Positions 39,613 through 44,024 of a DNA stretch of 64,000 nucleotides are shown piece after piece (position 1 is the stretch's first letter; each line of letters starts with the position of its first letter). Where the stretch lies: the NCBI RefSeq assembly GCF_004342605.1, contig NZ_SLZL01000006.1:186001-250000 (forward strand), in the 5' to 3' direction. The stretch comes from Caulobacter sp. BK020. Lineage in GTDB: Bacteria; Pseudomonadota; Alphaproteobacteria; Caulobacterales; Caulobacteraceae. The notes beneath the pieces are model-generated. The model was not told where the DNA came from and did no database searches. It worked only from the letters and a program-made list of their open reading frames with translations. A program made the translations under genes and the position numbers.

Positions 39613-40452
39613 CTAGCTGCCGCCGCTGAACAGCGACAGGATGATCTGCGGCGCCTGGTTGGCGATCGACAGGGCCTGGGCGCCCAGTTGCTGCTTGACC
39701 TGCAAGGCCTGCAGCCGCGCGCTTTCCTTGGCCATGTCGGCGTCGACCAGGTTGCCCACGCCGGTCTCGAGCACGTCGTTGAGCTTGGAGACGAAGGTGT
39801 TGTGGGCGTCGATCTGCTTGGCTTGCGACCCGATCGAGCCGACCGCCTGGTTCACGGCGGTCATCGTGGCGTCCAGGCGGGTCAGCACCGCCGCCGCCTG
39901 GGTCATGGTGCTGATGTTGTCGGTGGCCGTCAGGGTGTTGATCGTGCCGCCCAGCGACAGGTTCTGCAGGTTCAGCGTGATGACCGTCGCGGCGTCGGCG
40001 TCCGCCAGGAAGGTGATGTTGGTCGGCTCGCTGCCGTTGAGGATGTTGGCGCCGTCGAAGGTGGCGCTGTTGACCACCTGGGTCAGGTTCTTCAGCAGCC
40101 CCTGGAAGTCGGCGTTCAGGGCGGTGCGCGACGAGGTCGACAGCGAGGTGTCCTTGGCCGCGACCACCTTCTCGCGCATCTGGGTCAGCAGGTCGGAGAC
40201 CGATTCACCGGCGGCCAGGGCCACGTCGGTGATCGAGGTCGCGCGATCGAGGCTCATCTTCACCGCGCTCAGGGCCGAGCGATCGGCGCGCTGGTCCTGG
40301 GCGATCGACCAGACGGCGGCGTTGTCCTTGGCGGTGGAGATCGCCAGACCGGTGTTGATGCGGGACTGCACGCCCGACATCTCGTCGTTGGTCTTGTTCA
40401 GATTTTGCAGGGCGATCAGCGCGGGCTGATTGGTGTTCACGCTCAGCGTCAT
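39613..40452 (-). CDS. fljJ: Flagellin, FljJ-like
   Basis: A 279-residue flagellin lacking the hypervariable D2/D3 domains. N-terminal D0/D1: [19 protein letters not shown], with NTGLAISTAKDNAAVWSIA. C-terminal D1/D0: VDADMAKESARLQALQVKQQLGAQAL and ILSLFSGGS. It differs more from the other two flagellins than they do from one another, and the position farthest from flaF matches the 29-kDa FljJ of Caulobacter. The start at 40452 follows a GTG codon that I reject. Its leader has no clear sigma-54 site and no AAAAY hairpins. Confidence 0.9.
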   Translation of the reverse strand: MTLSVNTNQPALIALQNLNKTNDEMSGVQSRINTGLAISTAKDNAAVWSIAQDQRADRSALSAVKMSLDRATSITDVALAAGESVSDLLTQMREKVVAAKDTSLSTSSRTALNADFQGLLKNLTQVVNSATFDGANILNGSEPTNITFLADADAATVITLNLQNLSLGGTINTLTATDNISTMTQAAAVLTRLDATMTAVNQAVGSIGSQAKQIDAHNTFVSKLNDVLETGVGNLVDADMAKESARLQALQVKQQLGAQALSIANQAPQIILSLFSGGS

Positions 40453-41079: not shown

Positions 41080-41901
41080 CTATCGGAACAGGCTGAGGAT
41101 CGACGAGGTCGACTGGTTGGCGATGGACAGCGCCTGCACGCCCAGCTGCTGCTTGGTTTGCAGCGACTGCAGCTTGGCGCTTTCCTTGGCCAGGTCGGCA
41201 TCGACCAGGTTGCCCACGCCGGCGTCGAGGCTGTCCTGCAGCTTGCCGACGAAGGTCAGGTGGGTGTCCAGGCCCGTCGAGCTGGTGCCCAGCGAGGCCA
41301 GCTTGTTGGTCGCCGTGCCCAGGGCGTTGCTGATGGTGGTGATCATCGTCTTGGCCGCGGCCGCGTTGGCGAAGGTCGAGCCGGTGGTCAGGCCCAAGCC
41401 GACCAGCGACAGGGTCTTGGCGTTGACGGTGAACTGGGTGCCGTCCGAGTTGGCCAGGAAGGCCAGCTTGGTGGTCGAGCCGTCGGCGATCGAGACGCCG
41501 TTGAACTTGGCGTTGGTGACGGCCTTGGTGATCTGGTCGCGCAGGCTGTTGAAGTCCGAGACCAGGGCGTTGAACGAAGCGGTGTTCAGCGAAGTGTCGG
41601 AAGCGGCCAGGGCCTTTTCCTTCATCTTGCCCAGCAGGTCGGTGACCGTGTCGCCGGCGGCCAGGGCCACGTCGATGGTCGACTGGCCGCGTTGCAGCGA
41701 GTCCTTCACGGCGTTCAGGGAATTGGCGGTGGTCGACTGGTTCTTGGCCATCGCCCAGATCGCGCCGTTGTCCTTGGCGTTACCGACCTTCTTGCCGGTG
41801 TTGATGCGCTGCTGGGTGACCTGAAGTTCGCTGTTGGTGGCGTTCAGGTTTTGCAGGGCGATCAGGGCGCCAGCGTTCGTGTTGATGCTATTCAGCGGCA
41901 T
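41080..41901 (-). CDS. fljK: Flagellin, FljK-like
   Basis: A 273-residue flagellin with only D0 and D1. It starts [20 protein letters not shown] and ends ILSLFR. It is very similar to the FljL-like flagellin upstream (most of the sequence from [16 protein letters not shown] to [20 protein letters not shown] is shared). Context and order suggest FljK, the main filament subunit. It has a sigma-54 promoter at 41974-41988 and a structured leader. The ATG at 41901 has AGGAACTG upstream. Known in Caulobacter: FlbT acts on the fljK mRNA leader. Confidence 0.95.
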
Positions 41902-41962
41902 CGCGACAGTTCCTATTCAAGGGTTCCGACGTCATTTTGACAGCCGGGAGCATTTTGCTCGG
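41902..41962 (-). promoter_or_regulatory. fljK mRNA leader with tandem AAAAU-loop hairpins
   Basis: The transcript predicted from the sigma-54 site starts near 41962: CC, then GAGC-AAAAT-GCTC, then CCGGCTGTC-AAAAT-GACGTCGG (8 pairs, one bulged T, including one G-U pair). Both hairpins have the same AAAAT loop. They sit within the first 40 nucleotides. The same design appears in the fljL leader with different stem bases. FlbT is known to bind this leader in C. crescentus; assigning these exact hairpins to it is inference. Confidence 0.7.
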
Positions 41963-41973
41963 AGAACTAGGCA

Positions 41974-41988
41974 GCAAAGATCGGGCCA
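41974..41988 (-). promoter_or_regulatory. Sigma-54 promoter of fljK
   Basis: On the minus strand TGGCCC-GATCT-TTGC matches the -24/-12 consensus (GG, ten bases, GC). The predicted transcript start is near 41962, 60 bases before the ATG. Confidence 0.85.
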
Positions 41989-42115: not shown

Positions 42116-42142
42116 CAGGTTGAGTTCGGATAATCGACGAAC

Positions 42143-42180
42143 GAAAAAAGAAATGCCGGACGGCCCGCAGGCCGTCCGGC
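42143..42180 (-). terminator. Terminator of fljL
   Basis: On the minus strand GCCGGACGGCC, loop TGCG, GGCCGTCCGGC (11 pairs) is followed by ATTTCTTTTTTCG. It begins about 31 bases after the stop codon. Confidence 0.9.
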
Positions 42181-42210
42181 TTTGATCGCTTCTTGAAGCC
42201 TAGTCGCCGA

Positions 42211-43029
42211 TCACTTGAACAGCGAAAGGATCGACTGAGGCGTCTGGTTCGCGATCGACAGGGCCTGAACACCCAGTTGCTGCTTGGTCTGCAGCGATTG
42301 CAGCTTGGCGCTTTCCTTGGCCAGGTCCGCATCGACCAGGTTGCCGACACCCGCGTCCAGGCTGTCCTGCAGCTTACCCGTGAAGGTCAGGTGCATGTCC
42401 AGGCCCGTCGAGCTGGTGCCCAGGTTCGCCAACTTGTTCGTCGCCGTGGTCAGGGCCGTCGTGATCGTGGCGATCATCGTCTTGGCCGCGGCCGCGTTGG
42501 CGAAGGTCGACGTCGCCGTCAGACCCAGGCCGACCAGCGACAGGGTCTTGGCGTTCACCGTGTAGGCGACACCGTCCGAGTTGCTGAGGAACTGCAGCTT
42601 GGAGGTCGTGCCGTCCACGAGGCTGACGCCGTTGAATTGAGCGTTGGTGACAGCCTTGGTGATCTGGTCGCGCAGCGAGGTGAAGTCCGAGACCAGGGCG
42701 TTGAACGAAGCGGTGTTCAGCGAGGTGTCGGAAGCGGCCAGGGCCTTTTCCTTCATCTTGCCGAGCAGGTCGGTGATGGTGTCGCCAGCGGCAAGGCCCA
42801 CATCGATCGTCGATTGTCCGCGCTGGAGCGAGTCCTTCACGGCGTTCAACGAGCTCGACGTCGCGCTTTGCATCTTAGCCATCGACCAGATCGCGCCGTT
42901 GTCCTTGGCGTTGGAGATCTTCTTGCCGGTGTTGATGCGTTGTTGGGTGCTTTGGAGCTCCGAGTTGGTGGCGTTCAGGTTTTGCAGCGCGATCATGGCG
43001 CCGGCATTGGTGTTGATCGAGTTCAGCAT
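42211..43029 (-). CDS. fljL: Flagellin, FljL-like
   Basis: A 272-residue D0/D1 flagellin starting [19 protein letters not shown] and ending QSILSLFK. It is a close paralogue of the FljK-like gene. Start choice: ATG 43029 aligns with the family; an in-frame ATG five codons upstream (43044) is placed inside a leader hairpin loop (AAAATGG). The promoter is sigma-54 type at 43102-43116. Position next to flaF fits FljL. Confidence 0.94.
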
Positions 43030-43090
43030 GATGGTTCTCGCCATTTTGGGAGGATTGCCCCGGCGTTTTGCCGGTCGGGCGTTTTGCCCG
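43030..43090 (-). promoter_or_regulatory. fljL mRNA leader with tandem AAAAC-loop hairpins
   Basis: From the predicted start near 43090 the leader reads CGGGC-AAAAC-GCCCG (43090-43076), GA, CCGGC-AAAAC-GCCGG (43074-43060), and near the start codon CTCCC-AAAAT-GG-C-GAG (43052-43037), where the last side contains the GCGAGA purine stretch just before the ATG. Three hairpins, all with AAAAY loops. The stem bases differ from those of the fljK leader while pairing is kept. Candidate FlbT-responsive element. Confidence 0.72.
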
Positions 43091-43116: not shown

Positions 43117-43191
43117 GTTGGCGCCGCCTTGGCGAAATTTCTAAAATTCTGATTTTATTCGATTTCTACGAGCCCAAAGCCGAATACGAGA

Positions 43192-43250
43192 CCGCCCGGC
43201 GAATGCAGAATTCGCCGGGCGGCAGGTTTTTCCGGAAAGGTTTGCCGGAG
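43192..43250. promoter_or_regulatory. Perfect 13-bp palindrome and GGTTTGCCGG element upstream of fljL
   Basis: CCGCCCGGCGAAT, GCAGA, ATTCGCCGGGCGG is a perfect 13-base stem (43192-43222), followed by CCGGAAAGGTTTGCCGGAG (43232-43250). It lies between the end of flaF and the fljL promoter, where a FlbD enhancer would be, and may also end flaF transcription. No U-tract follows on the flaF strand. Confidence 0.5.
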
Positions 43251-43276
43251 GGGCGGAAGCGCCCTCCCCGCCTGGA

Positions 43277-43639
43277 TCAGGCGGCGTCGGCGCGGCCCGC
43301 CAGGCCTTGCATGATCATGCGATTGATCTCGATCAGCGGCTCGAAATCCTCCTCCTTGCGCATGATGGCGCTGGAGTGGCGGCCAACCCAGAGGCTGAGC
43401 GAGATGATGCTGGCGCGCAGCTGCACCGGCAGGGTGTTCTCCGGCAATGAGCAGTCGGTCGCCAGGGCCGACCAGACGCGGCGGTTCCAGTCCAGGGCGT
43501 CGATGCGCGTAGCGATGTCGTCCGCCGGAGCCTCGGACGCCGCCATCAGCGCGCGCGTCACCTGACCGAACAGACGGTACTCCATCTCACGCGGGTTTTC
43601 GGTCCGCGTCGCCGTCTGCTGATAGGCCCTAAGAGACAT
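43277..43639 (-). CDS. flaF: Flagellin biosynthesis regulator FlaF
   Basis: A 120-residue Fla[33 protein letters not shown], with the [14 protein letters not shown] motif and [11 protein letters not shown] end. In Caulobacter FlaF promotes flagellin synthesis and secretion, acting against FlbT. Its start overlaps the flbT stop by 11 bases, so the two are coupled. Confidence 0.95.
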
Positions 43640-44024
43640 GCCCCAACCTCTGATCTTCGTATTCGATTAGCTTACGGCTCAGCATGAGCGCCTTGTAGTA
43701 CTCGCGCGCCATCACATGCTTGGAGATGGCGATGCAGTCGCTCAGCACGTCGGGATTGCGCACTACGCCCATGAATTCGGTCAGGCGGGTGGCGAACTCT
43801 TCGTACTGACGCTCGGCGGCGGACTCGTCCAGGTACATCATCATGACCGGGAAATAGATCCGGCGCGCCGGCGTGGTCGCCTCGTCAGGCTGCATGATGT
43901 CCTTCTCACGCAGCACCGAGGCCTTGTTCTGAAGCACCAGCACGCCGCGGCGGTCGCCATTCTGGACCACCGCGCCGTTCAGCACGAACTTCTCGCCGGG
44001 TTTCAGCGACAGCTTCAATGGCAC
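43629..44024 (-). CDS. flbT: Flagellin mRNA regulator FlbT
   Basis: A 131-residue FlbT, beginning (GTG) [20 protein letters not shown], then [16 protein letters not shown] and FPVMMMYLD. The GTG at 44024 has GAGGGAGCGGCCCT upstream and matches the family start, so longer frames upstream are rejected. In C. crescentus FlbT binds the flagellin mRNA leader and lowers its stability until the hook is complete. It lies in the same window as leaders with repeated AAAAY hairpins. Confidence 0.95.

Follow-up and report, generated by a model that had tools for sequence, protein, structure and literature searches.

The fljK leader of Caulobacter sp. BK020, the 5' UTR of a gene for structural flagellin, opens on the minus strand with two adjacent hairpins, H1 and H2, which both display an AAAAU loop. 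This leader is probably a conserved cis-acting RNA, in which the tandem hairpins with their invariant AAAA would offer several docking sites to FlbT for the repression of flagellin translation. FlbT is encoded in the same genome. The window, i.e. the whole stretch of 64,000 nt that was analysed, is a segment of the Caulobacter chromosome whose minus strand holds flbT, flaF, fljL, fljK, a flaG-like gene and fljJ (Table 1).

Table 1. Features of the flagellin region (positions within the window).
Feature	Position	Strand	Remarks
fljJ, regulatory flagellin gene	39613..40452	-	leader mostly without AAAA hairpins
fljK, flagellin gene	41080..41901	-	
H3, small hairpin CCU-UGAAU-AGG	41912..41922	-	contains the ribosome-binding AGGA; weak
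H2, hairpin CCGGC(u)GUC-AAAAU-GAC-GUCGG	41926..41947	-	abuts H1; also written CCGGC(u)GUC-AAAAU-GACGUCGG
H1, hairpin GAGC-AAAAU-GCUC	41948..41960	-	5' end of the fljK leader; alignment columns 12-24
Predicted sigma-54 (-24/-12) promoter of fljK, TGGCCCGATCTTTGC	41974..41988	-	read from the sequence
fljL, flagellin gene	42211..43029	-	
fljL third hairpin, CUC-CCAAAAUGG-c-GAG	43037..43052	-	CAAAAUG; at the ribosome site
fljL hairpin 2, CCGGC-AAAAC-GCCGG	43074-43060	-	
fljL hairpin 1, CGGGC-AAAAC-GCCCG	43090-43076	-	
fljL leader hairpins 1 and 2, AAAAC loops	43060..43090	-	match to covariance model R1, 32.8 bits
flaF, flagellin chaperone gene	43277..43639	-	Pfam FlaF, E 4e-37
flbT, gene of the known post-transcriptional flagellin repressor	43629..44024	-	Pfam FlbT, E 2e-46
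FlbT residues 3-40	43905..44018	-	aligning with CsrA 2-45 in profile-profile comparison

The fljK promoter TGGCCCGATCTTTGC was called using the established -24/-12 consensus of sigma-54. From this site, the +1 of fljK is predicted near 41962, so that H1 starts at about +3. The start codon ATG is located at 41901-41899. The 61-nt leader folds with -17.9 kcal/mol compared to -11.5 kcal/mol for shuffles (z -2.76); for the fljL leader, z is -2.91. In a preliminary description of this DNA, two hairpins had been proposed at the predicted 5' end, and both were found there with their coordinates confirmed. The second stem had been drawn as TGTC/GACG. Here, the hairpin holds but the drawing does not: The stem pairs CCGGC with GUCGG and GUC with GAC, and the U between CCGGC and GUC forms a bulge of one base.

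For the comparison, 78 Caulobacteraceae loci yielded about 170 flagellin leaders. Hairpins of at least 4 bp with an AAAAN loop are present in 111 of the 131 fljK/fljL-type leaders, compared to 1.9 expected by shuffling. In an alignment of 45 leaders from Caulobacter, Phenylobacterium, Asticcacaulis and Brevundimonas, 94.1% of the cells are paired in the named structure, compared to 88.5 ± 0.5% after shuffling and 27-52% for a slid structure. Two-sided cells number 46 versus 14.7 in shuffles. RNAalifold recovers H1 and H2 unaided. Parsimony places approximately 27 two-sided pair changes on the gene tree. About 10 of these events concern the H1 pair 13-23, which is G-C in 26 and A-U in 18 leaders without any break, and about 13 fall into H2. 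The earlier claim, drawn from two leaders, that selection acts on RNA shape while the A-run of the loop stays fixed is now strongly supported by dozens of them. Furthermore, flagellin copies at second loci retain H1 and H2 although their upstream DNA lacks a sigma-54 site. This means, the constraint acts on the transcript, and a part of the promoter is excluded. H3 is the weak part of the fljK leader because it shows zero two-sided events on the gene tree of the aligned leaders. In fljK leaders, 83.7% of its cells are paired, it is absent from the RNAalifold prediction, and its sole support comes from class-wide ARAA hairpins 10-19 nt from the ATG. The hairpin at the ribosome site is firmer, judged by its fold, in fljL than in fljK, where covariation is absent. 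In some leaders of loci L012, L022, L024, L044 and L060, the H1 stem measures 8 bp and uses the same CCGG as the outer H2 stem, so that the outer pairs of H1 and H2 are mutually exclusive there.

The covariance model R1 was run on the BK020 genome and across 190 genomes. Four strong matches were obtained in BK020, all of them flagellin leaders (two in the window, two on other contigs), and subsequent matches fall to 18 bits or less. Three of the weaker ones (L090-L092) were examined; they lie in or against coding sequence and were taken as chance. Across the 190 genomes, few far matches are located clearly upstream of flagellin genes, and most of those with E > 1e-5 look like chance. Therefore, a simpler hairpin rule was adopted. 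An Rfam search with gathering and relaxed thresholds yielded no match at the leaders, and no Rfam family covers the fljK leader.

In other Alphaproteobacteria, flagellin leaders near flbT have the same design with AAAA or AGAA loops. The rule, a loop ANAA(N) on a stem of at least 4 bp, was widened on a first sample, where 33 of 70 leaders match, and was then left unchanged for genomes outside that sample. In this second sample of FlbT-positive genomes, which is independent of the first by genome and less so by lineage as both have some families in common, 32 of 55 leaders from 22 of 31 loci match versus 1.84 ± 1.37 in shuffles. By far the strongest excess was found for AGAA (25 loops versus 0.55 in shuffles) and AAAA (20 versus 0.79). 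A control with real genes from the same regions gave ARAA hairpins in 31 of 55 flagellin leaders but only in 13 of 483 other leaders (p 3e-25). The stem-AAAAY-stem repeat, for which a search in alphaproteobacterial flagellin leaders had been suggested, does occur, with the loop widened to A(A/G)AA. The association between FlbT and these hairpins is confounded, as both the presence of FlbT and the flagellin type follow phylogeny. Across the class, loops concentrate at distances of 10-20 and 30-60 nt upstream of the start codon, where the nearer site covers the ribosome site and the other precedes it. CsrA targets are known for the same layout.

It is unlikely that the hairpins are stabilisers at the mRNA 5' end or generic structures of sigma-54 leaders and that FlbT reads something else. 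The mRNA is abundant and the hairpins do lie at its predicted 5' end, and leaders in general contain somewhat more hairpins than shuffles. However, a stabiliser does not need an invariant loop on changing stems, and all four A's of the H1 and H2 loops are fixed in the 45 leaders while the stem bases vary. In addition, the flagellin leaders of FlbT-less genomes contain other hairpins, but ARAA loops were found in 0 of 27. Binding of the loops by another protein, e.g. Hfq on A-runs, or by a small RNA instead of FlbT is distinctly unlikely. Hfq could plausibly contact A-rich single strands, and Anderson and Gober reportedly invoked a further cellular factor; against this, AGAA matches AAAA in enrichment (25 and 20), always inside a short closed loop, and the motif tracks with FlbT. 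A two-state RNA switch, for which the preliminary description had proposed that GCTCCCGG pairs alternatively with CCGAGC, is very improbable: Pairing between these sequences is possible in the window, and in some copies the H1 stem reaches into the CCGG of H2, but GCTCCCGG already includes the 3' arm of H1 (GCUC) so that the alternative adds merely CC/GG, the extra pairs form in 61% of the cells versus 59.6% in shuffles and similarly after a shift by one column, just 10 of 45 leaders hold the C-G pair at 10-29, H1 and H2 fold together in the window, and no conserved mutually exclusive pairing was found for the fljK leader in the 45-leader alignment.

That the fljK leader is a target of FlbT is known from the literature. 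FlbT control via flagellin 5' UTRs has been reported (PMC3930126, PMC4347634, PMC7591256), and, for C. crescentus, FlbT is reported to bind the fljK leader RNA and to lower expression (PMC3930126). The fljJ product acts together with FlbT as co-repressor of fljKLMNO (PMC7591256). The link to FlbT proposed in the preliminary description fits this known biology and the class-wide co-occurrence. In the proposed docking of FlbT, the tandem AAAA loops closed by Y-G and the weaker hairpin at the ribosome-binding site would together form the platform. Most likely, FlbT with FljJ as co-repressor would occupy two or three ARAA hairpins. Until hook completion, docked FlbT would keep the ribosome site closed and direct the mRNA to decay, and export of FljJ thereafter would release the repression. 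By analogy with CsrA, we infer that the ARAA loops may be the contact points of FlbT, which might bridge at least two hairpins, one of them over the ribosome site. The fljJ gene, which encodes the co-repressor, mostly lacks such hairpins (AAAAN loops in 2 of 39 fljJ leaders), and this counts in favour of FlbT docking. Against it count the 8 of 39 fljJ leaders with any ANAA hairpin, the lack of covariation in H3 and the about 40% of leaders from FlbT-positive genomes in which the rule used finds no 4-bp ARAA hairpin. In Brucella, FlbT has been reported as an activator (PMC4347634, PMC8781033), which also counts against docking for repression.

The closest known system is the FlbT-controlled fljK leader of C. 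crescentus (Anderson and Gober 2000, cited in PMC3930126 and PMC4347634). The leader analysed here is its counterpart from the same gene in a related species of the genus, with the gene of the same repressor nearby. Compared to that work, the tandem ARAA code, its covariation and its spread across the class are described here, a part of which may be contained in the original paper. The table of one review (PMC4347634) gives no FlbT recognition motif and calls the mechanism unresolved. Both the recognition motif, with its spread through the class, and the link to CsrA appear to be new; the hairpins may be partly described in primary papers. A simple loop code visible in genomes makes the recognition of flagellin mRNA by FlbT, a question since 2000, directly testable and yields candidate sites of FlbT throughout a bacterial class. 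The CsrA/FliW-controlled flagellin leaders (hag, flaA) likewise contain several short hairpins whose loops are read by a protein, often with one over the ribosome site, and their repression is tied to flagellin export (PMC4894983). In contrast to them, the loops here are ARAA and not ANGGA, which is absent from both H1 and H2. No match to CsrA (PF02599) was found in the BK020 genome. Another alphaproteobacterial cis-element with a flagellar link by name is the flg-Rhizobiales RNA (Rfam RF01736; Weinberg 2010, PMC2864571). It was rejected as the identity of the leader, as it has a different architecture without ARAA pentaloops. RF01736 has no match in the window and none above the Rfam cut-off in 190 genomes.

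FlbT and CsrA rarely occur together. Among the 190 genomes of the class, 63 encode FlbT, 36 CsrA and one both (p 2.6e-6). Of the 53 flagellin-rich genomes, 16 have only FlbT, 27 only CsrA, 10 neither and none both; p-values for this exclusion are inflated by phylogeny. In profile comparisons, the FlbT N-terminus aligns from the first residues and end to end with alphaproteobacterial CsrA (LYLTRKVGESVIINDxIEV...xxASVLRREIYERI), whereas FlbT has an additional helical C-terminal part. With hhalign, the probability is 66-84% and E about 1e-5 for one pair, E-values here being single-pair and not database-search values. A stricter match-column setting gave a probability of 34-40% and a score of 24.3, which was reached by 0 of 400 column shuffles (best shuffle 22.0). 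As decoys, 33 other families from the same loci were compared, the best of which scores 19 versus 32 for FlbT. FlbT R39 is nearly invariant (87 of 91) and aligns with CsrA R44, an established RNA-contact residue. Neither in PDB nor in Pfam did HMM searches with FlbT reach CsrA. An AlphaFold model of FlbT from a shallow alignment has a pLDDT of 66 and below 60 in the N-terminus, where it is too uncertain, and a Foldseek search with this model and its low-confidence N-terminus found nothing significant.

Judged by sequence, there is about an even chance that a divergent domain of the CsrA type forms the FlbT N-terminus. The wider proposal could equally well be right or wrong: FlbT would be a diverged member of the CsrA family, would have taken the place of CsrA in some of the Alphaproteobacteria and would recognize ARAA rather than ANGGA loops, with FljJ in the role of FliW/flagellin. 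Were it true, flagellin translation would be controlled by a single ancient protein family that uses two RNA codes, two systems described as merely analogous (PMC4894983) would be united, and an RNA-binding protein would be seen to have changed its target code. In passages from two of the papers that name both proteins, no homology is proposed, and one paper terms the systems analogous (PMC4894983). AGG(A/T) loops are found in 8 of 20 FlbT-less leaders from CsrA-bearing genomes versus 9 of 55 leaders from FlbT-positive genomes, a borderline difference (p 0.058). CsrA-type hairpins, e.g. GGGAAC-AGGAU-GUUCCC, occur in flagellin leaders of CsrA-bearing Alphaproteobacteria at the FlbT-less loci L161, L173, L180 and L184, which form a useful contrast set.

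ARAA hairpins were also seen in the leaders of some flbT genes (L277, L284, L303, L218, L221). This could reflect autoregulation in some lineages. In two genomes (L227 and L308 (-)), the AGAA hairpins CGATAGC-AGAA-GCTGTCG and TGACAGC-AGAA-GCTGTCG precede the same small gene, which begins with MEINVTTPVPLSQN and MEVNLPPQVTLPQN, respectively, and is a possible further target. On the minus strand of the window, strong GC-rich inverted repeats are located at 42139-42199, followed by a T-run, and at 43184-43273, before fljK and fljL. They are probably terminators that split the flagellin genes into single transcripts. Two further fljK-like flagellin genes lie at contig ends of the BK020 assembly (C9:428-1246 and C32:27758-28036), one of them cut off, as if the assembly had broken on repeated flagellin genes.
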